This document shows positions 7,683-38,653 of a stretch of 64,000 bases of DNA, in pieces. This DNA comes from Kutzneria kofuensis (GTDB taxonomy: Bacteria > Actinomycetota > Actinomycetes > Mycobacteriales > Pseudonocardiaceae), in assembly GCF_014203355.1 (NCBI RefSeq), contig NZ_JACHIR010000002.1, positions 496,001-560,000 on the forward strand, in the 5' to 3' direction. The translations under genes were made by a program, and so were the position numbers. Position 1 is the first letter of the stretch. Each line of letters opens with the position of its first letter. Below the pieces are notes generated by a model. That model was not told the DNA's origin, searched no databases, and saw only the letters and a program-made list of their open reading frames with translations.

Positions 7683-7686
7683 AAAG

Positions 7687-7711
7687 GTTGACCCAGTCCT
7701 CGGGCGGGTAC
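7687..7711 (+). promoter_or_regulatory. SigB/SigF-like promoter for the FAD/NAD(P)-binding gene
   Basis: GTTG, 15 nt, GGGTAC, ending 26 nt before the ATG at 7738. Together with 7658-7682 it forms a divergent promoter pair. Confidence 0.5.
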
Positions 7712-7737
7712 CAGAGCGCCGTGCGAGGCAACGGACG

Positions 7738-9555
7738 ATGACGTCACGGAACCAGCGGCTGCGGGTCGCGATCGTGGGCTGCGGGCCGCGCGGACTGGCC
7801 GTGCTGGAACGGCTCCTGGTCCGGCTGCGCCGCCGCCCGGGCGGCCAAGAGGTCGTGATCTGGGCTCTGGACCCGGTTGAGCACGGCTCCGGCCAGGTGT
7901 GGCGGAGCGACCAGCCCGAGTGGTACGCGACCAACGCCACCGCCGCCGAACTGACGGCGCAGTCCCTCGATTCGCCGGGCACACCGCGGTCGTTCGCCGA
8001 GTGGGCCGGGCACGACGCCGACTCCGCCCGGCAGACGTACCCCAGCCGGGCGAAATACGGCCGCTACCTGAGGGAGACCTTCGCCCGGCTGTGCGCGTCC
8101 GCCCCGCCCGGCGTGCGGGTGTTCCCGTTGACCGGCACCGCGACGGCACTGCGCCGTGTGGACGGTCAACTGCACCTCACCGTCGACAATGGACATCCTG
8201 ATCTCGTTGTGGACAAGGTTGTCCTGGCCACCGGCCACAGTGGTCTGGAGCCCGACGACGAGGAGCTCCGGCTGATGAACCATGGCCGCTACATCCGCGG
8301 TGGCATGGCCGCGACGATGCCGTTGGACGACATCGAACCGGACAGCACGGTCGCGATCCGCGGCCTGGGCCTGACGTTCTACGACGTCACCCGCGCGCTG
8401 TCGGTGGGTCGAGGTGGCCGCTTCGTCCGGCTGGCCGGTGAATTGCGCTATGTGCCCAGCGGCTTGGAGCCGCGGATGGTCGCCGGGTCGCGCAGCGGCC
8501 TGCCCTTCCTCGCCCGCGCCGAGCTGACCGAGCCCGCCGAGCTCGCTCCGCGCCCGGTCATCCTCACCGAGGACAAGCTGGCCGAGCTGCGCGCGGCCGC
8601 CGCCGACCGCCGTGGTAGCGCGAAGCTGGACTTCGCCGCCGAGGTGGAGCCGCTGGTCCGGGCCGAGCTCGAGTACGCGTACTACCGCTGCATCGTGCGC
8701 CAGCGGCACGGCGACGAGGCGGCCGCCGCCTTCAGCCTCGACGCGCTGGCCGACTTCGACCTGGACGACGTGCCGCCCTTCGACGTCGGCAAGCTGGCCG
8801 CTCCCTTCGCCGACCAGGGGTTCGGCGGCCCGGACGAGTTCCGGTCCCGGCTGCTCGGCGTTTTGCGCGAGGACGTGGCCAGGGCCTCGGCCGGGTCGAC
8901 CATCGACCCCGTCAAGGCGGCGCTGGAGGTGATGCGCTCGCTGCGCCCGGCCATGCCGGACGTGGTGGACTTCGACGGCCTGCTGCCGGACTCGCAGCGG
9001 GATTTCCTGACGCGCTGGGCGCCGATGAGCTTCCTGCTGTCGGCCGGGCCGCCCGTGGCGCACGTCGAGCAGCTGGCGGCGTTGATCGAGGCCGGCGTGG
9101 TGGACGTCGTCGGCCCCGACGCGCGGTTCTCGGCCGGCGACTCGGGCCTGTTCGTGACGGAATCGCCCGCGGTGGCCGGTTCCCGGCGGTTGGCCGACGT
9201 CCTGCTGGACGCCCGGGCGCCGGGTGCGGACCTGCGCCGCGACACCAACCCGCTGCTGCGCCAACTGCTGGCCGACGGCATGATCAGCGAGCACGTCAAC
9301 GCGGACCCGGCCACCGGGCGGCGGTTCGCCAGCGGCGGCCTGGCCGTCACCAGGTCCCCCTTCCACGTGGTCGACGCCCGGGGCGTGCCCGACCGCGACA
9401 TCCACGCCATCGGGGTCGTCACCCAGAACACCCGCTGGTTCACGCAGGTCGGCACCGGCCGGCCGGGACAGGACAGCCCGTTCCGCCGCGACGCCGACGC
9501 GATCGCCGGCGCCGTGCTGGCCGGGGAGGTGCGATCGTGGCCGATTCCGGCTTGA
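7738..9555 (+). CDS. FAD/NAD(P)-binding protein (NAD_binding_9 type)
   Basis: A 605-residue flavoprotein-like enzyme. The N-terminal dinucleotide-binding fold is clear (RVAIVGCGPRGLAVLERLL, residues ~9-27), with a second conserved element VVLATGHSGLEPDDEE. This matches the large FAD-NAD(P)-binding family (HI0933/YdhS-like) whose members act in amino-acid or natural-product oxidation but mostly lack a known substrate. The 3' end overlaps the GTG of the following YbdK/GCS2-type ligase by 19 nt, so translation is coupled and the two probably act on the same metabolite. A SigB-like promoter lies at 7687-7711. The reaction is unknown. Confidence 0.8.
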   Translation: MTSRNQRLRVAIVGCGPRGLAVLERLLVRLRRRPGGQEVVIWALDPVEHGSGQVWRSDQPEWYATNATAAELTAQSLDSPGTPRSFAEWAGHDADSARQTYPSRAKYGRYLRETFARLCASAPPGVRVFPLTGTATALRRVDGQLHLTVDNGHPDLVVDKVVLATGHSGLEPDDEELRLMNHGRYIRGGMAATMPLDDIEPDSTVAIRGLGLTFYDVTRALSVGRGGRFVRLAGELRYVPSGLEPRMVAGSRSGLPFLARAELTEPAELAPRPVILTEDKLAELRAAAADRRGSAKLDFAAEVEPLVRAELEYAYYRCIVRQRHGDEAAAAFSLDALADFDLDDVPPFDVGKLAAPFADQGFGGPDEFRSRLLGVLREDVARASAGSTIDPVKAALEVMRSLRPAMPDVVDFDGLLPDSQRDFLTRWAPMSFLLSAGPPVAHVEQLAALIEAGVVDVVGPDARFSAGDSGLFVTESPAVAGSRRLADVLLDARAPGADLRRDTNPLLRQLLADGMISEHVNADPATGRRFASGGLAVTRSPFHVVDARGVPDRDIHAIGVVTQNTRWFTQVGTGRPGQDSPFRRDADAIAGAVLAGEVRSWPIPA

Positions 9556-10634
9556 CCTTCGGCGTCGAGGAGGAGTTCCTCGTCGTCGACGCCACCGGCC
9601 GCCCCGTGCCGGCGGGCCGCTCCGTGCTGGGCGGCTCCGGCGGCGAGACCGACGAGCTCCAGCACGAGATGATCGCCTGCCAGGTGGAGTCGGCGACGCC
9701 GGTTTGCACCGGCGTGGGCGAGCTCCTCGGCCATCTGTGCCGGCTGCGCGAGACGCTGTCGGCGTCCGCCCGCGAGCGGGACCTCCGGCTCATCGCCAGC
9801 GGCACGCCGCCGCTGCCGGAGGCCACTCCCCCGCCGCTGACGTCCGAACGCCGCTACCACCAGATCGCCAGCCACTTCCGCAGCCTGCTCAAGTCGGCCA
9901 ACGTCTGCGGTTGCCACGTGCACGTCGGCGTGCCCGACCGGGAGACCGGGCTGCACGTGCTCAACCACCTGCGGCCGTGGCTGCCGGTGCTGCTGGCGGT
10001 CAGCGCGAACTCCCCGTTCAACGACGGCGCCGACACGGGCTACGCCAGCTGGCGGCACATGCAGATGTCGAACTGGCCCTCCGCCGGGCCGCCGCCGTAT
10101 CTGCGGTCGCTGGACGAGTACGACTCCACGCTGGACACGATGACTCGCTCCGGGGCGTTGCTGGATCCGGCGATGGCGTACTGGGACATCCGGCTCTCGC
10201 CGACGTACCCCACGGTGGAGATCCGCGTCTGCGACGTCACCATCACCGCGCAGGAGGCCGCGCTGATCGCCGTCCTGGTGCGCGGATTGGTCGCCCTGGC
10301 GCTGCTCACCGACGACGACGCGCCCGAGGTGGCGCAGGAGGTCATCCGAGCGGACCTATGGCTCTCCGCGCGGGACGGGCTCCGTGGGCGCTGCGCCGCC
10401 CCCAGCGGCAGCCCGCCCGAGTTCCACGCCCTCGACCGGCTGGTCGCGGAGGTTCGCCCGGTGTTGGACGACGAGGACCAGGACTTCGTCGAGCGGGTGA
10501 CCCGTCAGCTCGGCCGGGTCGGTGCCGGCGCGTCACGGCAACTCGCCGCTTTCGCCCGCGCCGGCAAACCCGAGGACGTCGTCACGATGCTCGCCGAAGC
10601 CACGGTCCCCTGTGACGCGCCGGCGTGTCCGTGA
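9537..10634 (+). CDS. Carboxylate-amine ligase, YbdK/GCS2 type (paralogue 1)
   Basis: A 365-residue member of the glutamate-cysteine ligase type 2 (YbdK/EgtA-like) family, which joins an amino-acid carboxylate to an amine or amino acid with ATP. Key motifs: GVEEEFLVVD at residues ~8-17, CGCHVHVGVPD in the centre, VSANSPF, and PTVEIRVCDV. The E. coli member YbdK has only weak glutamate-cysteine ligase activity, so the true substrate is open. The GTG at 9537 lies inside the 3' end of the FAD/NAD(P) gene (19-nt overlap). Two further paralogues are encoded at 17624-18697 and 21406-22488; this one looks closer to the third. Confidence 0.85.
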   Translation: MADSGLTFGVEEEFLVVDATGRPVPAGRSVLGGSGGETDELQHEMIACQVESATPVCTGVGELLGHLCRLRETLSASARERDLRLIASGTPPLPEATPPPLTSERRYHQIASHFRSLLKSANVCGCHVHVGVPDRETGLHVLNHLRPWLPVLLAVSANSPFNDGADTGYASWRHMQMSNWPSAGPPPYLRSLDEYDSTLDTMTRSGALLDPAMAYWDIRLSPTYPTVEIRVCDVTITAQEAALIAVLVRGLVALALLTDDDAPEVAQEVIRADLWLSARDGLRGRCAAPSGSPPEFHALDRLVAEVRPVLDDEDQDFVERVTRQLGRVGAGASRQLAAFARAGKPEDVVTMLAEATVPCDAPACP

Positions 10635-14667: not shown

Positions 14668-15645
14668 ATGCGGTTGAGACGGAGCCGGCTGACCGGCGAG
14701 TGCATCACCCGGCGTCGCCGTGGCCGCGGGTTCGGCTACCAGCACTACGACGGCACGCCCGTGACCGATCCCGCCACCCTCGACCGGATCCGGGCGCTGG
14801 CCATTCCACCCGCGTGGCGGGACGTGTGGATCTGTCCCTGGCCCAACGGCCACATCCAGGCCACCGGCACCGACGACGCGGGCCGTAAGCAGTACCTCTA
14901 CCACACCCAGTGGCGGGAGGACCGCGACCGGCAGAAGTTCGACCGTGTCCGCAAACTCTCCGCCAAGCTTCCCGCCCTGCGCCAGCAGATCGCCACCGAC
15001 CTCGACGCCGGCGGCCTGGCCCGCCAGCGCGTCACCGCCGTCGCCCTTCGCATGCTCGAACAGGGCGTCTTCCGCATCGGCAACGACGAGTACGTCGAGT
15101 CCAACGGCACCTACGGCGTGTCCACTCTGCTCCGTACCCACGTCACCGTCCGCCGCGACCGCCTGGACTTCTGCTTTCTCGCCAAGGGCAAGAAGGAACG
15201 CCGCGTCGCCCTGGAGGATCCCGAGCTGGCCAAGGCCGTCTCCAGCCTCAAACGCTCCCGTACCGGCAGTGACCGATTGCTCATGTACCGCAACGGCAAG
15301 GACTGGCGTCCCCTCGATTCCCAGGACGTCAACGAGCGCCTGCACGAGCTGGTCGGCGACGAGTTCACCGTCAAGGACCTCCGCACCTGGAACGCCACCG
15401 TGCTCGCCGCCGTCATCCTCGCCGGCCGCAAGGGCCAGGGCAGCAAGCGCACCGCCGTCCGCGAGATGTTCAAACAGGTCGCGCACCACCTCGGCAACAC
15501 CCCCGCCATCGCCCGCAAGTCCTATGTGGATCCCCGGGTCGTCCGCGCCTTCGAGCAGGACATGACCATCCGCCCCGCCACCGACCTCGAACGGGTGGAA
15601 CGCTCCGTGGCCCGCCTCCTCACCCGCATCAACTTCGACGACTGA
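14668..15645 (+). CDS. DNA topoisomerase IB (poxvirus-like)
   Basis: A 325-residue type IB topoisomerase, relaxing supercoils through a 3'-phosphotyrosine intermediate. The N-terminal domain has the family motif RGFGYQHYDGTPV and IPPAWRDVWICPWPNGHIQA. The catalytic domain contains FLAKGKKERRVAL (active Lys region), TVKDLRTWNATV (Arg) and the nucleophilic Tyr in ARKSYVDPRVV. Length is typical of bacterial members, which are common in actinobacteria and induced by stress in several species. The 3' end is followed by a large inverted repeat that may end transcription. Confidence 0.93.
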   Translation: MRLRRSRLTGECITRRRRGRGFGYQHYDGTPVTDPATLDRIRALAIPPAWRDVWICPWPNGHIQATGTDDAGRKQYLYHTQWREDRDRQKFDRVRKLSAKLPALRQQIATDLDAGGLARQRVTAVALRMLEQGVFRIGNDEYVESNGTYGVSTLLRTHVTVRRDRLDFCFLAKGKKERRVALEDPELAKAVSSLKRSRTGSDRLLMYRNGKDWRPLDSQDVNERLHELVGDEFTVKDLRTWNATVLAAVILAGRKGQGSKRTAVREMFKQVAHHLGNTPAIARKSYVDPRVVRAFEQDMTIRPATDLERVERSVARLLTRINFDD

Positions 15646-15646
15646 C

Positions 15647-15762
15647 CCCCGCGAGTCACGCTCTGGGACACACCGAATGTCGCTTTCGGGCAGAAGTGAG
15701 CCTCGAATCTCAGTTCTGCTCGAAACCTACATTCGGTGTGCCGGAGAGCGTGACTCGCCGGG
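15647..15762. repeat. Long imperfect inverted repeat, possible dispersed palindrome
   Basis: Left arm (15652-15695) begins CGAGTCACGCTCTG and contains ACACCGAATGT; right arm (15714-15757) is its near-complement and ends AGAGCGTGACTCG. The arms are about 44 nt with a few mismatches around an 18-nt spacer. The complementary CCCCG/CGGGG flanks extend it further. It can fold into a long hairpin after topoisomerase IB, so it may terminate transcription, but its size and uneven mismatches are more like a mobile palindromic repeat. Confidence 0.75.
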
Positions 15763-15776
15763 GTCGGGGACATCTG

Positions 15777-15810: not shown

Positions 15811-16500
15811 GTGACCACCTTCGAGGAGCGGCTCGTTCCCTCGCCGGCGCTGCGGCTGTTCCGCTCGCCCGGCGTGTACCGGCCGCAGTCGGACACCTGG
15901 CTGCTGGCGGAGGCCGCCGCGGCGGCGAGGATTCCGCCGGGAGCCCGCGTGCTGGACATCTGCACGGGGACGGGGGCGCTGGCGATCACGGCGTCGATGT
16001 TGGGGGCCAGGCACGTCGTCGCCATCGACGTGTCCAGGCGGGCGGTGTTGTCGGCGCGGTTGAACGCCTGGTTGAACGGGCAGCGAATCACGGCGTTGCG
16101 GGGGTCGATGCTGGCGTTGCCGGCGAAGGCGTCTTTCGACGTGGTACTGGCGAATCCGCCGTACGTGCCGTGTCCGGCGGACACCGTCACCCGAGGGCGA
16201 CGGAGGGCCTGGAACGCGGGGAAGGACGGCCGGGCACTGCTGGACCCGATCTGCAGGTCGATGCCACAGTTGTTGAAACCGAACGGGTTTCTGCTGATGG
16301 TCCACTCGGCACTGTCCGACACGGACAAGTCGCTGCGGCAGTTGCGGGAAGGTGGACTGCGGGCGGACGTGGTGCTGACCAGCACGATCCCGTTCGGACC
16401 GGTGATGCGGAGCAGGACGGAGTTCCTGGAGCAGGAGGGGCTCATCGAGCCGGGGCAACGCCACGAGGACCTGGTGGTGATCCGTGCCGACCGACCGTGA
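15811..16500 (+). CDS. HemK2/MTQ2-like SAM methyltransferase
   Basis: A 229-residue class I methyltransferase. The SAM-binding motif is VLDICTGTGALAI and the catalytic NPPY motif is VVLANPPYVPCP; NPPY enzymes methylate planar nitrogens such as glutamine side chains. It lacks the N-terminal helical domain of PrmC/HemK and so resembles the short HemK2/MTQ2 group. Its 3' end overlaps the GTG of the CDGSH gene by 17 nt, so the two are translationally coupled. Position suggests a partner role with the convergent ligase/diiron-enzyme operon, but the substrate could also be a release factor or another protein. Confidence 0.85.
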   Translation: MTTFEERLVPSPALRLFRSPGVYRPQSDTWLLAEAAAAARIPPGARVLDICTGTGALAITASMLGARHVVAIDVSRRAVLSARLNAWLNGQRITALRGSMLALPAKASFDVVLANPPYVPCPADTVTRGRRRAWNAGKDGRALLDPICRSMPQLLKPNGFLLMVHSALSDTDKSLRQLREGGLRADVVLTSTIPFGPVMRSRTEFLEQEGLIEPGQRHEDLVVIRADRP

Positions 16501-16684
16501 GCACCGCCGCGTGGTCGTGGAGCCGGGCGGGCCCGTCCTGGTGGACGGGCCCGTCGAGATCGTGTTGCCGGACGGCACGACGGCGCGGTCCGATCGGTTC
16601 GTGGTGGCGGTGTGCGCCTGCCGACGCAGCAAGCGCTACCCGTTCTGCGACACCAGTCACCGCAAGAGGGTCCGCGACTCCTGA
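16484..16684 (+). CDS. CDGSH iron-sulfur protein
   Basis: A 66-residue single-domain CDGSH protein. The cluster-binding motif is complete: CACRRSKRYPFCDTSH (C-x-C-x2-S-x3-P-x-C-D-x2-S/T-H), which ligates a labile [2Fe-2S] cluster with three Cys and one His. The N-terminal ~40 residues form strands (VVVEPGGPVLVDGPVEIV). Such proteins transfer electrons or clusters. The GTG start lies within the methyltransferase gene (17-nt overlap) and the 3' end overlaps, on opposite strands, the end of the diiron enzyme gene. It could supply electrons to that enzyme; this is inferred from context. Confidence 0.9.
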   Translation: MPTDREHRRVVVEPGGPVLVDGPVEIVLPDGTTARSDRFVVAVCACRRSKRYPFCDTSHRKRVRDS

Positions 16685-17634
16685 CGCAGCGAGGACCGGC
16701 CGCTCCGCCAGGAGGACAGCAGGTGGTCGGCAAGATGCTGCTCCAGCAACTCCGTGGCCTGGATGCCGAACACGATGTCGGCGGCCAGTTCCGGTTCCCG
16801 AGCAAGCAGATCGCCGACGACGTCACGACGCAGCACCTGCTCGTGCACGGCGTCGGCCTCGATGTGCTCGGTGTAGAACAGCCGGCAGGCGTCGGGAGCC
16901 TCGAGACGGGTCAACGCGTTCTCCATCCGCTGGGCGCTGGGCCCGGTGCTGATCTCGGCGGCGGCGAAGTGGCCGACCAGGGCGCCGCGCAGCCGGCGGT
17001 GCAGACCGAACAGCGACATCATGTTGACGGTGGCCAGGGAACAGGCCGGCACGTCGTCGAGGTAGTGCAGGTATCCGGACGAAAGCCCGGCGGCGTCGAG
17101 CAGATCGGCGAACAGCCGGGCATGCACCCGCTCGGCCCGGCCGCCGCCGAACTCGTCGAACTCGACGGCGACCAGCGCGGCCTTGGCCCGGCCGCTCAGC
17201 CGGGGAATCACCCACGCGTGCGGGTCGGCCTCCTTGAGGTGGTAGATCGAGCGGTGCACGAAAAACTCTCGCATCTGCCACCACTCCCCCTCGTCACGCA
17301 GGAAGTGGCTGAGCCCGCTGCCGGGCACGTGCTCGACGAGCAGCTCGTCGATCTCCCCGGTCACGTCGTCGCCGCCGGGAACCGCGGCGTGCAAGGCGTC
17401 CTCGAAGACACGCTCCATGGAACCGCGCAACCGCAACAGGTCCGGGTCCCACTCCCACGCCGGGTCGACGTCGGGCAGCCCCTGGTAGTGCAGCTCGTAG
17501 CACAGGTGCAGGGCGAGCTGGAGGTCCTCGCCGAACGGGTCGGCGTCGTCGGCCGGGCCCGACGGCCGCACCGACCCGGCGGGCCGGCGCAGCACGCCGA
17601 TGACCTCCTCGGACAGCGGTCCCCTAGCGATCAT
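16657..17634 (-). CDS. Iron-containing redox enzyme, haem-oxygenase-like diiron family
   Basis: A 325-residue all-helical protein of the Haem_oxygenas_2 / haem-oxygenase-like diiron oxidase group. Conserved blocks: VHRSIYHLKEADPHAW (127-141), VEFDEFGGG (157-165), SLFGLHRRLRGALVGHF (207-223) and EHIEADAVHE (256-265). Their Glu, Asp and His residues are the likely iron ligands. Characterised relatives oxidise small molecules (N-oxygenation, C-C cleavage, desaturation). The ATG at 17634 was chosen because it overlaps the stop of the upstream ligase by 11 nt; the frame further upstream lies inside that gene. It is the last gene of the five-gene minus-strand run. The substrate is unknown. Confidence 0.87.
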   Translation of the reverse strand: MIARGPLSEEVIGVLRRPAGSVRPSGPADDADPFGEDLQLALHLCYELHYQGLPDVDPAWEWDPDLLRLRGSMERVFEDALHAAVPGGDDVTGEIDELLVEHVPGSGLSHFLRDEGEWWQMREFFVHRSIYHLKEADPHAWVIPRLSGRAKAALVAVEFDEFGGGRAERVHARLFADLLDAAGLSSGYLHYLDDVPACSLATVNMMSLFGLHRRLRGALVGHFAAAEISTGPSAQRMENALTRLEAPDACRLFYTEHIEADAVHEQVLRRDVVGDLLAREPELAADIVFGIQATELLEQHLADHLLSSWRSGRSSLRQESRTLLR

Positions 17635-18697
17635 CGTTGCCTCCCAAGGAAAGCTGTCGTACGACGGCGGACAGGCCGGCCGCGGCCAGCAGGCGCTGGC
17701 GGGTGGCCCCGGTGCACCGGTCCCGCAGCAACCGGTGCACCTCGTCGAGCTCGCCGGCGTCCACCAGCGCGTCCCGCACATGATCGAGCAACAGCGCCAC
17801 CATGACGGAGGCCGACACCTGCTTTCCCAGCACCGGATCGACGGCCGGACCGTCCATTCCGTACCGGGACGCCGTCCAGACGGCCGCGGCGGCAGTCTGC
17901 ACCGGCAACGCCTCCACCCCACGGTCCAGTTGCGCCAAGGCGGTGTTCACCAGCGCACGACACAGCAGCGCCTGCAACACGGCATCGTCCACAGTGGCCG
18001 CGGTGTCGGCGACGCGGAATTCGACCGTGGGCCACCGCGGCGAGGGCCGGGCGAACCAGAAGGTCTGCTTCTCGTCCACGAGAACTCCGCAGTCCACCAG
18101 GCGTGAGACCTCCTGCTGCCACCGGGAATGATCGGCGCACCAGGGAGCGATGCCGGAGCCCGGGAACCGCGACTGCTGCACGATGCGCCAGCTCTCGTAG
18201 CCGCGGTCCTGTCCATTGTAGAACGGGGAATTGACCGACAGCGCCAGCAATGTCGGCAACCACCGGGCCACGTGGTTGACCACGGCCACCGCCGTGTCCT
18301 TGTCCGGCACGCCGACGTGCACGTGACAACCGCACGCCTCGTAATCGCTCGCGATGTCCCCGTACAGCTCGTCGACGCGGCCGAACCGTGGGTCCACAGC
18401 CTTTTCCGGCTGCGCGGAGCCCAGCACCGGCGTGCCGGTGGCCAGCACACGCACGTCCGTGGCGGAGGCGGCAGCGGCCAGTGCCCGGCGACCGGCCGCG
18501 AGCTGGCCCCGCAGCTCGGCGGCGTCACTGCAGACACCGGTGGCCACTTCCACCTGGGTGTCGCGCAACTCCCGTTGCACCCTCATCCCGGCGGGCAGCG
18601 GCCCGGCGCACCGCGCCAGCACCTCGGCCGCCCGCGGCGTTGTGGTGCCGGAGCGGTCGATGAGGAGGAACTCCTCCTCGACTCCGACCGTGCTCAT
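17624..18697 (-). CDS. Carboxylate-amine ligase, YbdK/GCS2 type (paralogue 2)
   Basis: A 357-residue member of the YbdK/GCS2 ligase family with GVEEEFLLID at the N terminus, CGCHVHVGVPDKDT, ALSVNSPFYNGQD, and FWFARPSPRWPTVEFRVAD in the amino-acid-binding half. It is more divergent from paralogues 1 and 3 than those are from each other. The ATG at 18697 follows GGCGGGGTG. It is 32 nt after the M20 amidohydrolase stop and overlaps the diiron enzyme start by 11 nt. This tight coupling suggests that the ligation product is the substrate of the oxidase, which is a testable inference. Confidence 0.87.
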   Translation of the reverse strand: MSTVGVEEEFLLIDRSGTTTPRAAEVLARCAGPLPAGMRVQRELRDTQVEVATGVCSDAAELRGQLAAGRRALAAAASATDVRVLATGTPVLGSAQPEKAVDPRFGRVDELYGDIASDYEACGCHVHVGVPDKDTAVAVVNHVARWLPTLLALSVNSPFYNGQDRGYESWRIVQQSRFPGSGIAPWCADHSRWQQEVSRLVDCGVLVDEKQTFWFARPSPRWPTVEFRVADTAATVDDAVLQALLCRALVNTALAQLDRGVEALPVQTAAAAVWTASRYGMDGPAVDPVLGKQVSASVMVALLLDHVRDALVDAGELDEVHRLLRDRCTGATRQRLLAAAGLSAVVRQLSLGGNDDR

Positions 18698-18729
18698 CAC
18701 CCCGCCGAGATACCCGCCGAACACGGCAC

Positions 18730-19896
18730 TCAACCGGCCGCGTGGAAGTCCCGCCACGCCCGGTCGAGCAGGTCGGGCCGGGTCAGCACGTCGACGGCGG
18801 TGTCGGCCAGCGCCCGTGCGGCGGCCAGCATCACCGCCCGGCCCCGCGGGCTGGCGGCTGCCGCCGCGAACTCCGGCGTGTGGTCGGACTGGTCGGCGTC
18901 CGCGATGGCCACGAACGGGTGGATCGCCGGCAGCGTGTTGCTGACGTCGCCGATGTCCGAGGAGCCGAGGAAAACTCCCGGCGTCGGCTCGCCCAGGGTG
19001 ATACCGGATTCGGCGATGTGCTGGGCGAAGGCGCCGGACAGGGCGGCATTGTCACGAACGTGCTGGTAGCCGTCGCTCGCCGGCCAGACATCGACGGTCG
19101 TGCCGGTCGCCCGGGCGATGCCGTGGGCGCATTCGGTCAGCTGCGCCACCAGGTCGTCACGGGCGGCCGTGGTCAGGCCCCGGATGCCGAACCGCCCCTC
19201 GGCCAGGTCGGGCACGATGTTCGTGGCGGTCCCGCCCTCCGTGATGATGCCCTGCACGTGCGAACCCAGCGGCAGCCGCGACCGCAGCATCGCCAACGCC
19301 CCGAACAGCTGCACGAGGGCGGCGAGCGCGTCGATGCCCTCGGTGGGATTGCCGGTGGGATGCGCGGCGCGGCCGTGGAACCGGACGCCGACCTCGATCT
19401 GCGCGGTGAGCGGCGCGTACCGCCAGTCGTGCACGCCGGGGTGGAACATCAGCGCCGCCTCGATCCCGTCGAAGACGCCGGCCTTCAGCTCCAGCACCTT
19501 GCCACCGCCGCCCTCCTCGGCCGGCGTGCCGATGACCATCAGCGTCCCGGCGAGATCAGGCATCGCATACCGCACGGCGAGCGCGGCGCCGAGGCCGGCG
19601 GTGGCGATGAGGTTGTGCCCGCAAGCGTGCCCGAGCCCCGGCAACGCGTCGTACTCCAGCAGCAACGCCACCCGCGGCGGCGCACCCGTGCCCCAGTGGG
19701 CGCGGAAGGCCGTCGGCAGGCTGGCGACGCCGTGCTCCACCTCGAACTGCGCCGCCGTGAGCGCGGACACCAGCTCGGCGCTGGCCAGGTGCTCCTGGAA
19801 GGCGAGTTCCGGCTTGTCGTGCAGGAGAAGGCTGATCCGCCACAGCTCGTCCGCGTGGCGTTCGACCTCCTCCCGCACCCGCTCGTGCACGGTCAC
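18730..19896 (-). CDS. M20 family amidohydrolase (PM20D2/AbgB-like)
   Basis: A 388-residue zinc peptidase-like enzyme. M20 motifs are present: LEYDALPGLGHACGHNL, GTPAEEGGGGK (general-base Glu), and GRAAHPTGNPTEG. These residues are typical of N-acyl-amino-acid or p-aminobenzoyl-glutamate hydrolases that cleave amide bonds. The GTG start at 19896 overlaps the stop of the upstream decarboxylase by 4 nt (GTGA). In an operon with two amide-bond-forming ligases, it could hydrolyse a protected intermediate or reverse a wrong product, comparable to PM20D2 removing faulty dipeptides of beta-alanine with basic amino acids. Confidence 0.85.
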   Translation of the reverse strand: MTVHERVREEVERHADELWRISLLLHDKPELAFQEHLASAELVSALTAAQFEVEHGVASLPTAFRAHWGTGAPPRVALLLEYDALPGLGHACGHNLIATAGLGAALAVRYAMPDLAGTLMVIGTPAEEGGGGKVLELKAGVFDGIEAALMFHPGVHDWRYAPLTAQIEVGVRFHGRAAHPTGNPTEGIDALAALVQLFGALAMLRSRLPLGSHVQGIITEGGTATNIVPDLAEGRFGIRGLTTAARDDLVAQLTECAHGIARATGTTVDVWPASDGYQHVRDNAALSGAFAQHIAESGITLGEPTPGVFLGSSDIGDVSNTLPAIHPFVAIADADQSDHTPEFAAAAASPRGRAVMLAAARALADTAVDVLTRPDLLDRAWRDFHAAG

Positions 19897-21386
19897 GCCG
19901 GATCCTTGACCACGCGGACCGACTTCAGCTCCGAGTCGGCCGGATCGGGCAGCTGCATGCCCGCGTTCAGCCCGCTGCGCAGGTAGTCCAGCACCTCGCG
20001 GGTGATCACCTCACCCGGCACCAGCGCCGGCGCCCCGGGCGGATACGGGCTGATCATCTCGGCCGCCACCCGTCCGACCGCCTTGTCCACGTCGACCTGC
20101 TCGGTCTCGCCGAAGAAGGCGTCGCGCGGCAGCATCACCGTTTGGAGCTCCAACTCGTCGGGCCGGGGCAGGTCGACGGCCGGCGGGCGCTTCATCCGCT
20201 CGGCCGCCTGGGTGAGGTCCCGCAGGGCGTCCACCAGCACCGACGCCGTGTAGTCGTCGTCGGCGATGGTCAGGATCGCCACGATCCGCCGGTGGTCGGA
20301 GAGGCCGACCGTCACGCGCTTGCGGGCCCGCAGCCAGTCCGCCGCCTGGTAGCCGCTGATGCCCAGGCCGGACAGGTCGACGACCACCTTGAGCGGATCC
20401 AACGATGCCGCCAGGTCGGGGCCCACGAACTCCCGCTCCCCCATCACCCGCAACCCCGGCAGCTCGTCGATCTCCCGGCGAACCCGGTGCGCCAGCGACA
20501 ACGCGGTCGACAGCAGCTTCTCGCCGTCCTCGACCATCTGCCGCCGCCAACCGTCCAATGTGGCGTACACCAGTGACGAAGCACTAGTGGTGCCAAGGAG
20601 ATCCTCGCGCGCCTTCAGCACCGCCGGATCCACGCGGTCGCCCTGCAGATGGAAAACCGAGCTCTGCTCGACCGCCGCGCCCATCTTGTGCACGCTCGTC
20701 ACGCACAGGTCGGCGTTGGCGTCCATCGCCCACGGCGGCAGGTCCGGGTGGAATGGCAGGTGCGCGCCCCACGCCTCGTCCACGATCAGTGGCCGGTCGA
20801 ACTCGTGGCACACCTCGGCGATGGCCGCGATGTCCCCGCACGTGCCGTAGTCGGTCGGGGTCACCAGCAGCATGCCCTTGGCCTCGGGCTCGGCCTCGAA
20901 CGCCGCCCGCACCTCGTCCGGGCCGGGCGGATGCGACAGGTGCCGCTCCCCGTCCCAGTGCGGATGCACCCAGACGGGTGAGACGCCGCTGAGGATCAGG
21001 CCGGAGATGACCGACTTGTGCGCGTGCCGCACCACGATCAGCTTCTCGTGCGGCCCGGCCACCGCCAGCATCGCGCTCTTCACCGACAGCGAGCTGCCGC
21101 ACGTGGAGAAGAACGTGTGCTCGGCGCCGACGGCGTCGGCCATCAGCTCCTGGGCCTCCTGCAGCACGCCGTGTCGCATCAGCCGGTCGTCGAGCCCGTT
21201 GGGGCCGAGGACGTCGCTGCGGAACACGCCCTCCCCGACGACGTCGACGACCCGGCGGTCCGCCCCACGCCCCTGCTTGTGGCCGGGCGGGTTGAACGGT
21301 GTCATGCGCTGCTCGTGGTACTCGACGAGCGCGTCGAGCACCGGCGCCTTGCTGTGGTCCATGCGCTCGGATTCCCGCGCCGTCAC
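19893..21386 (-). CDS. PLP-dependent Orn/Lys/Arg-type decarboxylase
   Basis: A 497-residue fold-type I PLP enzyme of the Orn/Lys/Arg decarboxylase group. Visible features: NPPGHKQGRGAD near the N terminus, FSTCGSSLSVKSAML, LIVDEAWGAHL (PLP-binding Asp), and the PLP lysine in VTSVHKMGAAVEQ. It would make a diamine or agmatine from a basic amino acid. The GTG at 21386 is 19 nt after the preceding ligase; an ATG at 21362 (MDHSKAPVLDAL) is an equally plausible start by homology. Co-transcribed with ligases, amidohydrolase and oxidase, it may provide the amine for the pathway. Confidence 0.87.
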   Translation of the reverse strand: MTARESERMDHSKAPVLDALVEYHEQRMTPFNPPGHKQGRGADRRVVDVVGEGVFRSDVLGPNGLDDRLMRHGVLQEAQELMADAVGAEHTFFSTCGSSLSVKSAMLAVAGPHEKLIVVRHAHKSVISGLILSGVSPVWVHPHWDGERHLSHPPGPDEVRAAFEAEPEAKGMLLVTPTDYGTCGDIAAIAEVCHEFDRPLIVDEAWGAHLPFHPDLPPWAMDANADLCVTSVHKMGAAVEQSSVFHLQGDRVDPAVLKAREDLLGTTSASSLVYATLDGWRRQMVEDGEKLLSTALSLAHRVRREIDELPGLRVMGEREFVGPDLAASLDPLKVVVDLSGLGISGYQAADWLRARKRVTVGLSDHRRIVAILTIADDDYTASVLVDALRDLTQAAERMKRPPAVDLPRPDELELQTVMLPRDAFFGETEQVDVDKAVGRVAAEMISPYPPGAPALVPGEVITREVLDYLRSGLNAGMQLPDPADSELKSVRVVKDPA

Positions 21387-21405
21387 CAGCGGAAACCAGC
21401 GCGGG

Positions 21406-22488
21406 TCAGCCCGTCCAGGCCAGCACGTCGAGCACGTCGGCCATGTTTTCGGCGTTGTCGTGGGCGGCCCGCTGACGTTGCGCGCCGTTGCCCGAGGCGC
21501 GGACCTGGGCCAGGGCCTGGGTCACGAAGTCGGCGTCGTCACCGAGGCAGGGTTTGAGGTCGGCCACCAGGTCGTTGACGACCTGCCAGGCGGGCACGAG
21601 GTTCCCGGTGCGGGGGTGGACGCACCGGCCGGTGAGGCCGTCGCGAGCGGACCGCCACAGCCACGCCCGCAGGACCTCCGGTGGGGGTTGAGCGGCCGGG
21701 CGGGAGTCGGCCGACTGGGCGGCCAGGCCGCGGATCAGCGCGGCGAGCAGGGCTGCTTCGGTGGGGGTCGGGAGCACGTCGGCGATGCGCACCTCGACGG
21801 TGGGTTGGTGCGCGGAGAGCCGGATGTCCCAGTAGAGCATGGCGCGGTCGAGTGCCGCGCCGGCAACGGTGAGCGCCTCGACCCGTGACTCGTAGGCGTC
21901 GACGGAATCGAAGTGCGGCGGCGGGCCGGCGGACGGCCAGCGGGTCCACAGGACGTGGCGCCAGCTGGCGTAGGCGGTGTCGTCACCGTTGTGGAACGGG
22001 GAGTTGGCGGTCAGTGCCAGAAGCACGGGCAGCCACGGGCGGATGTGGTTGCTGATGCGTAATCCCGTTGCGGCGTCGGGGATCGACACGTGGACGTGGC
22101 AGGCGCAGGTCAGCGACGCCTGGGCGATCGCGCCGAACTCGCGGGCCATGCGGTGGTAGCGGACGTCGGGGGTGAAGCGTGGGGGACGGTCGTCCGCCAT
22201 GGGGGCGGTGCCGCTGGGGAGCAGACGGAGGTTCTGCTCCGCGGCTTTGGCCGCCAGGCCGTCACGGAGGGCATGCAGGCCGTTGACGACCTCGTCGATC
22301 GTCTCGCAGACGGCGGTCGCCGATTCCACCTGGCAGCGGCGGAGTTCGTGCTCGACCTGTCCGTCCAGGTCGTCGATGTCGTCGATCTGCTCGGAGATCT
22401 CGGGGCCGGCGGCAGCGAGGCGGCCGGTGGCGTCGACCAGGAGGAACTCCTCCTCGACGCCCAGCGTCAGACCCGGTCTGTCGGTCAT
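21406..22488 (-). CDS. Carboxylate-amine ligase, YbdK/GCS2 type (paralogue 3)
   Basis: A 360-residue YbdK/GCS2-type ligase: GVEEEFLLVDATGR, CACHVHVSIPDAATG, LTANSPFHNGDD, and YWDIRLSAHQPTVEVRIADV. Like paralogue 1 it has the SAGPPP segment, absent from paralogue 2. In the central motif it has CAC and SIP where the other two have CGC and GVP, perhaps altering substrate choice. It is the first gene of the five-gene minus-strand operon. Upstream on the minus strand is only a poor SigB-like match (GTTT, 17 nt, GGGCAT at 22498-22524). Confidence 0.86.
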   Translation of the reverse strand: MTDRPGLTLGVEEEFLLVDATGRLAAAGPEISEQIDDIDDLDGQVEHELRRCQVESATAVCETIDEVVNGLHALRDGLAAKAAEQNLRLLPSGTAPMADDRPPRFTPDVRYHRMAREFGAIAQASLTCACHVHVSIPDAATGLRISNHIRPWLPVLLALTANSPFHNGDDTAYASWRHVLWTRWPSAGPPPHFDSVDAYESRVEALTVAGAALDRAMLYWDIRLSAHQPTVEVRIADVLPTPTEAALLAALIRGLAAQSADSRPAAQPPPEVLRAWLWRSARDGLTGRCVHPRTGNLVPAWQVVNDLVADLKPCLGDDADFVTQALAQVRASGNGAQRQRAAHDNAENMADVLDVLAWTG

Positions 22489-22640
22489 GGGGGGAAGATG
22501 CCCGGTGGTGAGGGTCGTTCAAACGTGGGGGGCGTTGGCGGTCGGGGGTGGTGGGTTTTGGGGTGGTCGGTTGGGGGCGGGTTTTTGCGATGGGGGTCGC
22601 GTGGTCATGGTTGTGGGTTGCGTGGTCGCACTTGTGGGTC
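22489..22640. other. G/T-rich intergenic flank of HNH element 1
   Basis: No gene is seen. From about 22525 to 22640 the plus strand is rich in G and T and poor in C, with many runs of 4-6 G and three loosely repeated GGT(C/T)GCGTGG blocks. The downstream flank of the element is correspondingly A/C-rich. The G-runs could form G-quadruplexes on the plus strand. Confidence 0.6.
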
Positions 22641-22760
22641 GCGTGGATTTTGTGTGGAGCCTCTGGACGATGGCCTCCGAGGGGCAATTCCGGGGCAGGC
22701 TCCGCCTGCCCCTCGCGCGGAGAGCTCAGGCCATCGTCCACCTCAACACAAAATCCACGC
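22641..22760. repeat. Long palindromic repeat, left end of element 1
   Basis: Outer arms GCGTGGATTTTGTGT / ACACAAAATCCACGC, middle arms GGACGATGGCCT / AGGCCATCGTCC, and an inner GGGGCAGG-CTCCG-CCTGCCCC hairpin. Its reverse complement is nearly identical to the right-end repeat (24076-24198), apart from the outermost bases. Confidence 0.85.
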
Positions 22761-26201: not shown

Positions 26202-26675
26202 TCAGGCGCTCTGCAGCGCCAGCGGATCGCTCGGCGCGTCCGCCTTGGCCGCGGCCATGCGCGCGCCCAGCTCCTGCAACTGCTTGCGCCCCATCGCCTT
26301 GCGCACCTCGGGGAACCAGTCCTTCTCCTCCTCTTCGACGTGGTGGCGGACGTTCTCGATCAGCACCGTCACCTTGGCGTCGAAGTTCTCCGCGTCGGCC
26401 TCCAGCTTCGCCAGCTCCGAGAGCATCCACACCACGACGTGGTGCTCCTCCACGCTTTCCAGCACGTGGTCCTCGGTCTCCGGCACCGCCTTGCGCGCCT
26501 CCGGATAGAAGATGGTCTCCTCGATGTAGGCGTGTGTCGTGAGTTCCTTGATGATGGAGTCGACCAGCCTGCGTTTCGTGGCGTACGCCTTGTCACCGGC
26601 CTGCTCGAACTTCTTGAACAGCTGCTCGACCGTCTTGTGGTCTTCCTTCAGCAGCACGATCGCATCGGTCGACAC
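26202..26675 (-). CDS. Hemerythrin-domain protein 2
   Basis: A 157-residue HHE protein with typical motifs LLKEDHKTVEQLF, THAYIEETIFYPEA, VEEHHVVVWMLSEL and HHVEEEEKDWFPEV, giving the five His and two acidic ligands of a diiron site. It is shorter than hemerythrin 1 and lacks its tail. The GTG at 26675 has a strong ribosome site (GGAGGAG, 8 nt upstream) and a textbook SigB/SigF-like promoter (26719-26743). Role: oxygen, NO or peroxide-related iron chemistry in the cytoplasm under stress. Confidence 0.9.
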   Translation of the reverse strand: MSTDAIVLLKEDHKTVEQLFKKFEQAGDKAYATKRRLVDSIIKELTTHAYIEETIFYPEARKAVPETEDHVLESVEEHHVVVWMLSELAKLEADAENFDAKVTVLIENVRHHVEEEEKDWFPEVRKAMGRKQLQELGARMAAAKADAPSDPLALQSA

Positions 26676-26718
26676 GGGGCCCACTCCTCCCGGCACGGAT
26701 AAGACGAGACACCCACGG

Positions 26719-26743
26719 ATACCCCGCCGCATCGGCGACAAAC
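26719..26743 (-). promoter_or_regulatory. SigB/SigF-like promoter for hemerythrin 2
   Basis: On the minus strand: GTTT, 15 nt, GGGTAT, an exact match to the SigF-type consensus. It ends 43 nt before the GTG at 26675. Confidence 0.65.
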
Positions 26744-26747
26744 TGCG

Positions 26748-26774
26748 GTTTTCGACCGGGCCCCGCCGAGGTAT
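26748..26774 (+). promoter_or_regulatory. Weak SigB-like promoter for chaB
   Basis: GTTT, 17 nt, AGGTAT, ending 33 nt before the ATG at 26808. Spacing and first base differ from the consensus. It is divergent from 26719-26743. Confidence 0.3.
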
Positions 26775-26807
26775 CCCGTCCCCGTCCGAAGTCGACACTG
26801 GAGTGTG

Positions 26808-27212
26808 ATGGCCATGCCCGGGGCGAAGGAACTGCCCAGCACCCTCAAGCGGTCCCCGCAGAAGGCGCAGCGCACGTGGATCAAGGCGCACGACGCGGCC
26901 GTCGAGGAGTACGGCGAGGGCCGGCGCTCGCACCAGACGGCGTTCGCCGCGCTCAAGCACAGCTACGAGAAGGTCGGCGACCACTGGGAAGCCAAGAAGA
27001 ACAAGGGCCCGTCCGATCCGCAGGCGGCGCAGGGCAACCGCGCCAAGGCGAAGAAGACCGCCGGCGGCGTGGACGCCAACGCCAGCAAGACCCACCTGTA
27101 CGAGGTGGCGAAGAAGCTGGACGTGCCGGGCCGGTCCACGATGACCAAGCAGCAGCTGGTGAAGGCGATCCAGAAGGCCAACAACCGCAAGACCGCCAAG
27201 GCCAGGTCGTGA
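26808..27212 (+). CDS. chaB: ChaB-family protein with Rho N-terminal (SAP-like) domain
   Basis: A 134-residue protein. Residues ~5-65 are a ChaB domain (ELPSTLKRSPQKAQRTW, FAALKHSYEKVGDHWEAK); residues ~90-128 are a Rho N-terminal/SAP-like nucleic-acid-binding helix pair (THLYEVAKKLDVPGRSTM). ChaB was named for a regulator of a cation antiporter, but its biochemistry is unclear; actinobacterial fusions are stress-induced. Three possible starts exist: GTG 26805, ATG 26808, ATG 26814. I chose 26808 for its spacing from GGAG. It is very Lys-rich at the C terminus, consistent with nucleic-acid binding. Confidence 0.85.
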   Translation: MAMPGAKELPSTLKRSPQKAQRTWIKAHDAAVEEYGEGRRSHQTAFAALKHSYEKVGDHWEAKKNKGPSDPQAAQGNRAKAKKTAGGVDANASKTHLYEVAKKLDVPGRSTMTKQQLVKAIQKANNRKTAKARS

Positions 27213-33541: not shown

Positions 33542-33865
33542 ATGACCAGCAGGAGAGTCCTCCCCCGACCGGTCGCCGCCGATTGGGCGTGGCAGCTGCG
33601 GGCCGCCTGCCGCGGCGGCCCCGAAGCGGTGTTCTTCCACCCGGACCTGGAACGCGGGTCGGCCCGACAGGACCGGGACGAGCGGGCGAAGGCGGTGTGC
33701 GCCCGCTGCCCGGTGATCGTGGAGTGCCGCCGGCACGCCATCATCGCCGAGGAGCCCTACGGCGTCTGGGGTGGTCAGGACGAGCACGAGCGGCGGCTGG
33801 TCATCGCCCGCCGCCGGCGGGACAATCGGCGGCGCGGGCGAGCCCGGGTGCGTTCCGAAGTGTGA
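33542..33865 (+). CDS. WhiB-family [4Fe-4S] transcriptional regulator
   Basis: A 107-residue WhiB-like protein. Four cluster-ligating cysteines are visible: one in LRAACRGG, then CARCPVIVEC (C-x2-C-x5-C). The G[VI]WGG beta-turn (YGVWGGQDE) and a basic C-terminal tail (RRRRDNRRRGRARVR) that contacts DNA are present. WhiB proteins bind RNA polymerase sigma factor region 4 and respond to oxygen or NO. Being next to partner-switching genes suggests participation in the same stress circuit. Confidence 0.93.
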   Translation: MTSRRVLPRPVAADWAWQLRAACRGGPEAVFFHPDLERGSARQDRDERAKAVCARCPVIVECRRHAIIAEEPYGVWGGQDEHERRLVIARRRRDNRRRGRARVRSEV

Positions 33866-38038: not shown

Positions 38039-38653
38039 ATGACTGCAGCGAAGGAAGTGCGCGCGCTTGCCCTCGTATGCACGCTCACGCCGTCACCCGC
38101 CGAGTCCAGCAGCGACCTGCTCGCCCGGCACGTGCTGGACCAGCTCGCCGCCCAGGGGGTCAAGGGCGAGACCATCCGGGTCGTCGACCAGGAGGTGAAG
38201 CCCGGCGTGGCGGTGGACATGGGCGACGGCGACGTGTGGCCGGCGATCCGGTCCCGGCTGCTGGAGGCGGACATCCTGCTGCTGGCCACGCCGATCTGGC
38301 TCGGCCACCCGTCCAGCATCGCCCAGCGCGTGCTGGAGCGGCTGGACGCGGAGCTGTCCGAGACCGACGACGAAGGCCGGCCGCGCATGTACAACAAGGT
38401 CGCGACGGTCGCGGTCGTCGGCAACGAGGACGGCGCGCACAAGGTCAGCGCCGACCTGTTCCAGGCCCTGGACGACGTCGGCTTCACCATTCCGGCCGGC
38501 GGCGTCACGTACTGGGTCGGCGAAGCCATGCACGGCACCGACTACAAGGACCTCGACGAGGTTCCCGAGCAGGTGGCCAAGACCACCGAGCAGCTCGCCA
38601 GCAACGCCGCCCACCTGGCGCGGGTGCTGCGCGAGAACCCGTACCCGGCCTGA
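38039..38653 (+). CDS. Flavodoxin/NAD(P)H-dependent FMN reductase family protein
   Basis: A 204-residue flavodoxin-like protein. FMN phosphate loop region: LVCTLTPSPAESSSDLLA; the second flavin-contact loop is ATPIWLGHPSSIAQRVLERL, typical of WrbA/FMN-reductase-like proteins. It likely performs NAD(P)H-dependent quinone or FMN reduction in the cytoplasm. First gene of an operon with the 58-residue ORF (13 nt gap) and a nucleotide-sugar-epimerase-like gene. Confidence 0.85.
   Translation: MTAAKEVRALALVCTLTPSPAESSSDLLARHVLDQLAAQGVKGETIRVVDQEVKPGVAVDMGDGDVWPAIRSRLLEADILLLATPIWLGHPSSIAQRVLERLDAELSETDDEGRPRMYNKVATVAVVGNEDGAHKVSADLFQALDDVGFTIPAGGVTYWVGEAMHGTDYKDLDEVPEQVAKTTEQLASNAAHLARVLRENPYPA

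Follow-up and report, generated by a model that had tools for sequence, protein, structure and literature searches.

The 64,000-nucleotide stretch of Kutzneria kofuensis DNA analysed here (contig NZ_JACHIR010000002.1, positions 496001–560000, in a genome of 10.4 Mb), referred to as the window and used for all numbering unless stated otherwise, encodes a haem-oxygenase-like diiron enzyme (HDO) together with a YbdK/GCS2 carboxylate-amine ligase (ligase 2), a CDGSH [2Fe-2S] protein and a HemK2/MTQ2-type methyltransferase, and these four genes, termed module A, represent a well-supported, apparently undescribed gene module. The linkage of ligase 2 with HDO, and of HDO with the CDGSH and methyltransferase genes, exceeds chance by a wide margin. 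Next to them lies module B, which comprises an Orn/Lys/Arg-type decarboxylase and an M20 amidohydrolase, and which moves and decays independently. The reading favoured here, on which confidence and doubt are evenly balanced, is that the window holds a general-stress island in which two separately switched units touch, namely the SznF-type HDO module A and the independently moving module B.

The seven open reading frames (ORFs) proposed in an earlier note on this DNA were found at the places it gave, and its family assignments were upheld by Pfam and NCBIfam. Together with the promoter-like sites, the genes are arranged as follows (PLP, pyridoxal 5'-phosphate):

15811–16500, plus strand: HemK2/MTQ2-type N-methyltransferase, 229 amino acids, NPPY at residue 115, above the TIGR00537 cut-off; core of module A.
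16484–16684, plus strand: CDGSH [2Fe-2S] protein, 66 amino acids, with three cysteines and one histidine retained in CACRRSKRYPFCDTSH; core of module A.
16657–17634, minus strand: haem-oxygenase-like diiron enzyme (HDO, PF14518), 325 amino acids from ATG, with SznF-type ligand positions; core of module A.
17624–18697, minus strand: YbdK/GCS2 carboxylate-amine ligase 2, 357 amino acids from ATG 18697, of the HDO-linked clade; module A.
18711–18735, minus strand: SigF/SigB-type promoter-like site GGTT-N16-GGGTA ahead of ligase 2, retained in three Kutzneria loci.
18730–19896, minus strand: M20 amidohydrolase, 388 amino acids, closest solved relatives HmrA and Xaa-Arg dipeptidase; module B.
19893–21362, minus strand: Orn/Lys/Arg-type PLP decarboxylase, 489 amino acids from the corrected ATG, PLP lysine motif SVHK; module B.
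21372–21396, minus strand: SigF/SigB-type promoter-like site GTTT-N16-GGGAA, 9 nucleotides 5' of the decarboxylase ATG, retained with a spacer of 15 or 16 in four Kutzneria loci.
21406–22488, minus strand: YbdK/GCS2 ligase 3, 360 amino acids, of a clade that differs from that of ligase 2; joins either unit depending on species.
22499–22524, minus strand: promoter-like site GTTT-N17-GGGCA ahead of ligase 3, retained in three Kutzneria loci.

The linkage of these genes was assessed in a family sample of 150 Pseudonocardiaceae genomes, this one included, which was searched with the decarboxylase, HDO, ligase 2 and M20; strong matches were counted (HDO at ≥53% identity, ligase 2 at ≥47%, M20 at ≥62%, decarboxylase nearly full-length), weaker or fragmentary ones were excluded, and the HDO, ligase 2 and M20 counts are those among the matches listed. 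HDO was observed in 96 genomes, ligase 2 in 75 and both in 66, and in 57 of these 66 genomes the two genes are adjacent on the same strand, with gaps of 23–148 nucleotides in 49 of the 57 adjacent pairs, the nine other genomes having them on different contigs. The presence of HDO is associated with that of ligase 2 (Fisher p 9e-10 over the 150 genomes, which are related, so that this and the other p values, uncorrected for kinship, serve only as a guide). In addition, HDO-centred loci were compared, comprising 40 family loci (from 39 genomes, hand-picked, mostly one to three per genus) and 20 phylum loci of other families (hand-picked from 59 other genomes with an HDO match, HDO being present in 60 of the 396 genomes of the phylum sample). 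Within 3 kb of HDO, the family loci contained the CDGSH gene in 39 of 40 cases, the methyltransferase in 34, a YbdK-type ligase in 26 and the decarboxylase in one, and the corresponding values for the 20 phylum loci were 13, 8, 3 and 0. The CDGSH and methyltransferase genes are the steadiest partners of HDO in the family loci. The earlier note had grouped the ligase, HDO, CDGSH and methyltransferase genes, and this grouping is borne out by the conserved linkage; the CDGSH and methyltransferase genes, which it had regarded as an add-on, actually belong to the core.

Different orientations were also observed for module A, whose genes are convergent, divergent or in one direction, and because order and orientation vary, the module is not simply a fixed block that was passed down. 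A Streptomyces plasmid carries methyltransferase-CDGSH-HDO in one direction, with a 4-nucleotide overlap between the CDGSH and HDO genes, and this module is surrounded by SigB/SigF/SigG-type sigma, GAF-ANTAR and STAS genes; similarly, HDO and CDGSH overlap by 4 nucleotides in one direction on a Curtobacterium plasmid, and the record of a third plasmid carries no annotation at this place. The idea in the earlier note that the CDGSH protein is the redox partner of HDO is plausible, and the overlaps on the two plasmids are consistent with it. In the midpoint-rooted ligase tree, the HDO-adjacent ligase 2 proteins form a single clade (36 rows, support 98/91) with ligases 1 and 3 outside it, and three ligases beside HDOs of other classes group apart in a deep clade of their own; two rows belonging to neither clade (one ligase 1 and one ligase 3) were scored as HDO-adjacent only through short distances in Kutzneria. 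Since HDO-adjacent ligases sit in two distant clades, the link between HDO and ligase either dates far back or came about more than once. Ligase 2 resembles the known YbdK (GCS2) ligases in scoring above the TIGR02050 cut-off and in matching a solved YbdK (at E 0.001 its only PDB matches are the solved YbdK 1r8g and its relative 1tt4), and differs from them in having its own HDO-linked clade.

The individual family assignments are clear. The methyltransferase scores 103 bits against TIGR00537 (cut-off 87) and carries the NPPY motif, in keeping with a HemK2/MTQ2 type; the CDGSH protein scores 63 bits against PF09360, and its motif has the form that we take to be CxCx2(S/T)x3PxCDx(S/A/T)H; HDO matches PF14518 (Haem_oxygenas_2) with an E value of 4e-58 and 196.6 bits (cut-off 28.9); and ligases 1, 2 and 3 score 262, 234 and 271 bits against TIGR02050 (YbdK, cut-off 176). 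The active-site motifs are intact in the CDGSH cluster, the methyltransferase (NPPY), the decarboxylase (SVHK) and the M20 enzyme (GHACGH). Genome-wide, seven strong GCS2 matches and one weak, split match were detected, three of the strong ones lying inside the window; the presence of several YbdK ligases was dropped as proof of a pathway, since the genome has seven strong copies.

The metal site of HDO points to the chemistry that module A may perform. Among solved structures, phmmer matched HDO to HrmI (1.6e-7, the best by score), SznF (5e-7) and RohS (1.8e-5), and residues E135, E161, H171, E227, H257, D261 and H264 of HDO align without gaps to E189, E215, H225, E281, H311, D315 and H318 of SznF (chain 6m9r), which we take to be the metal ligands of that enzyme. 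These seven positions are conserved, in the same order, in 74, 74, 74, 75, 75, 74 and 74 of 75 HDO rows. SznF, HrmI and RohS sit in natural-product pathways, and the solved HDO relatives act on small amines or guanidines. The window HDO resembles these three enzymes in sequence and in all seven SznF ligand positions, and differs from them in lying in a stress island with a CDGSH protein and a HemK2-type methyltransferase and in having no cupin match in Pfam. According to the available part of a review, HDOs are known mainly from natural-product pathways, SznF has a 3H/4C ligand set that roughly a quarter of HDOs are estimated to share, and HrmI is an N-oxygenase with a 3H/3C set (PMC13108848); the terms CDGSH, ferredoxin, reductant and electron donor do not occur in that part of the review (PMC13108848). 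The seven-ligand set favours N-oxygenation by HDO without proving it. An AlphaFold model of HDO (17 rows) came out all-helical but at very low confidence, with a predicted local distance difference test score (pLDDT) of 39.

Module B was found to be separable from module A. HDO and the decarboxylase are both present in 28 genomes and lie within 15 kb in five of them (this genome, G057, G015, G141 and G110); ligase 2 and the decarboxylase share 30 genomes and lie within 15 kb in four; HDO and M20 share eight and lie within 15 kb in two; and the decarboxylase and the M20 orthologue share eight and are adjacent in six. The presence of HDO and that of the decarboxylase showed no clear association (Fisher p 0.11). 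Across the family sample, the decarboxylase and M20 genes stand beside module A only in this genome and in G057, where M20 is a remnant, and more loosely in G141, G015 and G110. The nearest named relatives of the decarboxylase come from Kutzneria buriramensis and Kutzneria sp. 744 (88% identity), and their loci are arranged differently. In Kutzneria sp. 744, ligase 3 adjoins ligase 2 with an M20 tail between them (locus position 6834 corresponds to window position 18760), and the decarboxylase-M20 block, which matches window positions 21401–18735, lies 490 kb from ligase 2-HDO, its edge falling just ahead of the decarboxylase promoter-like site; this arrangement is read as a block that was probably lost from its place between the two ligases or transferred out of it. 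G057 has ligase 3-decarboxylase-M20 remnant-ligase 2-HDO in this order, with no match to the M20 stretches at window positions 19836–19217 and 19079–18809, and in K. buriramensis (G109) ligase 3-decarboxylase is followed by a topoisomerase, with no HDO among the matches listed. These differing arrangements indicate that module B moves and decays independently. Moreover, the decarboxylase and M20 genes are divergent neighbours in several Amycolatopsis and in one Actinacidiphila, and ligase 3 is linked either to the decarboxylase unit or to the ligase 2-HDO unit, depending on species. The earlier note had proposed one pathway that included the decarboxylase and M20, to be given up if the genes scatter independently in related genomes, and with HDO and the decarboxylase within 15 kb in 5 of 28 genomes and HDO and M20 in 2 of 8, the genes do scatter.

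A function within module B itself is suggested by its relatives. The best solved matches of the M20 enzyme are HmrA (2e-68) and Xaa-Arg dipeptidase (3.5e-63; presumably PM20D2), and the decarboxylase matches lysine/arginine decarboxylases and the short form 2x3l. Because M20 is nearest to HmrA and Xaa-Arg dipeptidase, it may supply a basic amino acid, and these matches suggest that it frees this amino acid for the decarboxylase. The two proteins thus resemble Xaa-Arg dipeptidase/HmrA and the short Orn/Lys/Arg decarboxylases in their best solved matches, and as neighbours they differ from known systems in being seen, among the loci examined, only in part of the Pseudonocardiaceae and in one Actinacidiphila.

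Separate switching of the units is suggested by promoter-like sites. The published SigF consensus is GGWWT-N16-17-GGGTAY, as given in the accessible part of PMC7693655. The window contains eight GTTT-N14-17-GGGWA sites against 0.47 expected, and none of 100 shuffles reached eight. Upstream of the methyltransferase, HDO, ligase 2 or CDGSH gene, this strict pattern was seen in 25 of 76 HDO loci, against 0 of 76 with each of six other spacer ranges, and a wider pattern, to which GGTT and GTTC boxes were added, occurs in 33 of 76 loci against 7, 4, 0, 5, 2 and 3 at the other spacers. These 76 loci include the duplicate pairs L024/L156 and L029/L157, and with duplicates removed the strict pattern occurs in 23 of 74 loci against zeros and the wide one in 31 of 74 against 6, 3, 0, 5, 2 and 3. 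The spacer controls replaced random 240-nucleotide windows (59 of 3750 with a site), as random windows include coding DNA, and the GGGCA form of the ligase 3 site lies outside these spacer-controlled scans. In the window, SigF-type sites were found ahead of the decarboxylase and ligase 2, and ahead of ligase 3 only in the GGGCA form; upstream of the methyltransferase only a poorer GTTT-N14-GGGTT was read by eye. The genome encodes a SigBFG sigma factor above the family cut-off.

The gene starts are also concerned. The decarboxylase most likely starts at ATG 21362 rather than at GTG 21386: the alignment begins at residue 9 (the ATG at 21362) or later in 51 of 80 decarboxylase homologues, the SigF-type site at 21396–21372 spans the GTG in the window, and site and ATG are 9 nucleotides apart in the window and in the Kutzneria loci L149, L010 and L009. 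With the corrected start, the gap between ligase 3 and the decarboxylase is 43 nucleotides and contains the SigF-type site. Ligase 2 most likely starts at ATG 18697, 32 nucleotides past M20, with the promoter-like site at 18735–18711 ahead of it. The tight junctions described earlier therefore need revision in part. The overlaps are real (4 nucleotides at 19893–19896, 11 nucleotides at 17624–17634, and 28 bp between convergent genes at 16657–16684), and the methyltransferase and CDGSH genes overlap by 17 bp at 16484–16500; since the corrected starts have promoter-like sites ahead of them, the ligase 3/decarboxylase and M20/ligase 2 junctions are probably transcription starts instead. As a separate conserved promoter-like site precedes each of ligase 3, the decarboxylase and ligase 2, co-transcription of all five genes is unlikely, and ligase 3, the decarboxylase and ligase 2-HDO look co-regulated rather than co-transcribed.

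A SigF regulon is known from Mycolicibacterium smegmatis. As far as the accessible part of PMC4694148 goes, its SigF regulon includes an arginine decarboxylase (MSMEG_0266), a methylase (MSMEG_1771), a carboxylate-amine ligase (MSMEG_5590), hemerythrins and a Mn-catalase, with MSMEG_1772 assigned to seemingly the same promoter as MSMEG_1771. The likeness to the window lies in these like-named genes, most of which have GTTT-N15-16-GGGNA-type sites, and the difference lies in their scattered locus numbers (PMC4694148).

Under the two-unit reading, module A is a conserved ligase 2-HDO-CDGSH-methyltransferase gene cluster in Pseudonocardiaceae, with fewer members in other Actinomycetota, and each transcription unit would be switched on separately by a SigF/SigB-type sigma factor. 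The YbdK ligase may join an amino acid to an amine with ATP, HDO, with O2 and a diiron site of seven SznF-like ligands, may oxidise a nitrogen of this small molecule or of a related one, the CDGSH protein would supply electrons to the diiron site, and the NPPY methyltransferase could methylate an amide or another planar nitrogen. The product, or O2 consumption itself, might then protect under oxidative or desiccation-type stress. In module B, M20 would cleave a dipeptide to release a basic amino acid, from which the decarboxylase would make a diamine or agmatine. The product of module A is weakly constrained, and the comparative evidence is solid. A broader claim, which is doubtful, would make module A a widespread actinobacterial stress system outside recognised biosynthetic clusters, in which an SznF-type diiron N-oxygenase with its own CDGSH donor yields, as its stress metabolite, a small amide that is both N-methylated and oxidised at nitrogen (N-hydroxy-, nitroso- or nitro-like).

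Several observations weigh against the two-unit reading or parts of it. On the side of regulation, in 43 of the 76 HDO loci no module gene is preceded by a SigF-type site, even under the wide pattern, and the same pattern stands ahead of the decarboxylase in no more than 10 of 79 loci (controls 2, 1, 0, 1, 0 and 1), so that the control of this gene is less general; the M. smegmatis genes were likened to the window genes by annotation name, which makes their orthology a lead only. On the side of linkage, no partner was found near HDO in 6 of the 20 phylum loci, and no ligase within 3 kb of HDO in 14 of the 40 family and 17 of the 20 phylum loci, so the ligase cannot be essential to the HDO reaction everywhere. 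As to the chemistry, the assignment of the HDO fold rests on Pfam and on sequence matches to SznF, HrmI and RohS, and the reaction cannot be read off from the number of ligands, HrmI being an N-oxygenase of the 3H/3C type. Finally, ligase 2 is present in 30 of the 37 decarboxylase genomes (Fisher p 2e-5), an association for which two units account only through a shared stress lifestyle and which is the strongest point left in favour of the earlier note, and HDO occurs in the fetched 10-kb flanks of at least 16 of the 80 decarboxylase loci (from Amycolatopsis in nine cases, Nocardia in six and Mycolicibacterium in one). The decarboxylase and HDO belong to islands of one kind, and because of this association and this recurrent nearness, shared regulation or a looser metabolic link may still connect their units.

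A first alternative, which is unlikely, is that HDO protects directly in the manner proposed for DtpC, disposing of O2 or peroxide or holding iron in drying or oxidative stress, with the CDGSH protein as electron source and the ligase and methyltransferase as unrelated stress genes. DtpC of Acinetobacter baumannii, according to the available part of PMC13232832, is an HDO-domain protein co-transcribed with the catalase KatE, which limits H2O2 in dried cells and needs its metal-ligand residues. It resembles the window HDO in its HDO-type domain, its stress-protection role and its catalase neighbour, and it differs in that the words CDGSH, methyltransferase and ligase are absent from the available main text of its paper (PMC13232832). 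This alternative is further favoured by a Mn-catalase gene 14 kb away in the window (one lies within 3 kb of HDO in 2 of the 40 family loci) and by the CDGSH and methyltransferase genes standing together beside HDO in 34 of the 40 family loci, 22 with and 12 without the ligase. On the other hand, the ligase adjoins HDO in most genomes that have both (57 of 66), the SznF-like ligand set suggests substrate oxidation, and the likeness to DtpC is one of description only.

Mere proximity in a SigF-type stress island, with the linkage reflecting shared regulation and no joint work, is improbable. The window is rich in SigF-type sites, the units shuffle within such islands, and the like-named M. smegmatis genes belong to one regulon although their locus numbers are scattered (PMC4694148, accessible part); shared regulation alone, however, leaves the fixed HDO-ligase pair and the 4-nucleotide overlaps unexplained, and a second, distant ligase clade also adjoins HDO in other classes. 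Quite improbable, too, is the modification of a protein, for example of a glutamine side chain in a translation factor, by HDO and the methyltransferase in place of a metabolite. The best solved match of the methyltransferase is N6AMT1/HemK2, which acts on proteins, and the strong conservation of HDO suggests a conserved partner, but the small amines or guanidines on which the solved HDO relatives act, noted above and in part in the available text of PMC13108848, and the linked YbdK-type ligases argue otherwise. A single five-gene pathway that makes a polyamine amide and then oxidises it is very unlikely and was rejected as largely refuted by gene order, since the units are independent, with their own promoter-like sites, M20 is lost or moved and the decarboxylase usually lies elsewhere, even though all five genes lie side by side in the window (as they do in G057, except that M20 is not intact there) and the decarboxylase shows the nearness to HDO and the co-occurrence with ligase 2 given above.

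Some further arrangements of HDO loci were observed. HDO is present twice in genome G110, at a distance of about 250 kb; one copy (of loci L129/L130) is accompanied by ligase 2 only, the other by the CDGSH and methyltransferase genes, with the decarboxylase 3.6 kb from HDO; module A can thus split between HDO copies. In Mycolicibacterium canariasense (locus L065, 1017–11473), a Peptidase_Mx zinc-ribbon gene precedes HDO, a single predicted gene separates these from the decarboxylase, and the methyltransferase has a STAS gene as its neighbour. In a distant actinobacterium (L180, 5796–9441), HDO is flanked by a PLP decarboxylase that belongs to a different group (PF00282) and by a gene from a cluster that recurs beside four distant HDOs, the L176 member of which weakly matches a glycosyltransferase. 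A clustering of neighbours by simple ORF calling was set aside, as it merged families through mis-called overlapping frames and missed HDO in 14 of 64 loci; the commonest other cluster in it that has no counterpart in the window was a FAD-Rieske oxidoreductase, present in 13 of 64 loci and lying within 5 kb in 5 of these.

Elsewhere in the window, features resembling a stress island are a Mn-catalase (2040–2870), a hemerythrin (26202–27095), a WhiB protein (33542–33865) and an FMN reductase (38039–38653), and SpoIIE and hybrid sensor proteins are also encoded. A FAD/NAD-binding protein (7686–9555) overlaps ligase 1 (9537–10634) by 19 nucleotides, with a SigF-type site upstream (7686–7710), and may be a further ligase-redox pair. 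An imperfect 57-nucleotide inverted repeat (86% complementary, 8-nucleotide loop), perhaps a small repeat element, lies at 15644–15765 in the interval between a topoisomerase IB gene and the methyltransferase, and a 19-nucleotide inverted repeat (95%, arms 82 nucleotides apart) lies upstream of ligase 3 at 22641–22760.

Among the papers listed from the open-licence literature, none was found that treats HDO as forming a single system with a CDGSH protein, with a HemK-type methyltransferase or with YbdK, which is not proof of absence. The conserved HDO-CDGSH gene pair is a direct candidate for the redox partner of HDO enzymes. If the link to stress is true, diiron N-oxygenase-type chemistry would belong to the stress response of soil actinomycetes, beyond specialised metabolites, and the common, uncharacterised YbdK ligase family would gain a partner enzyme.

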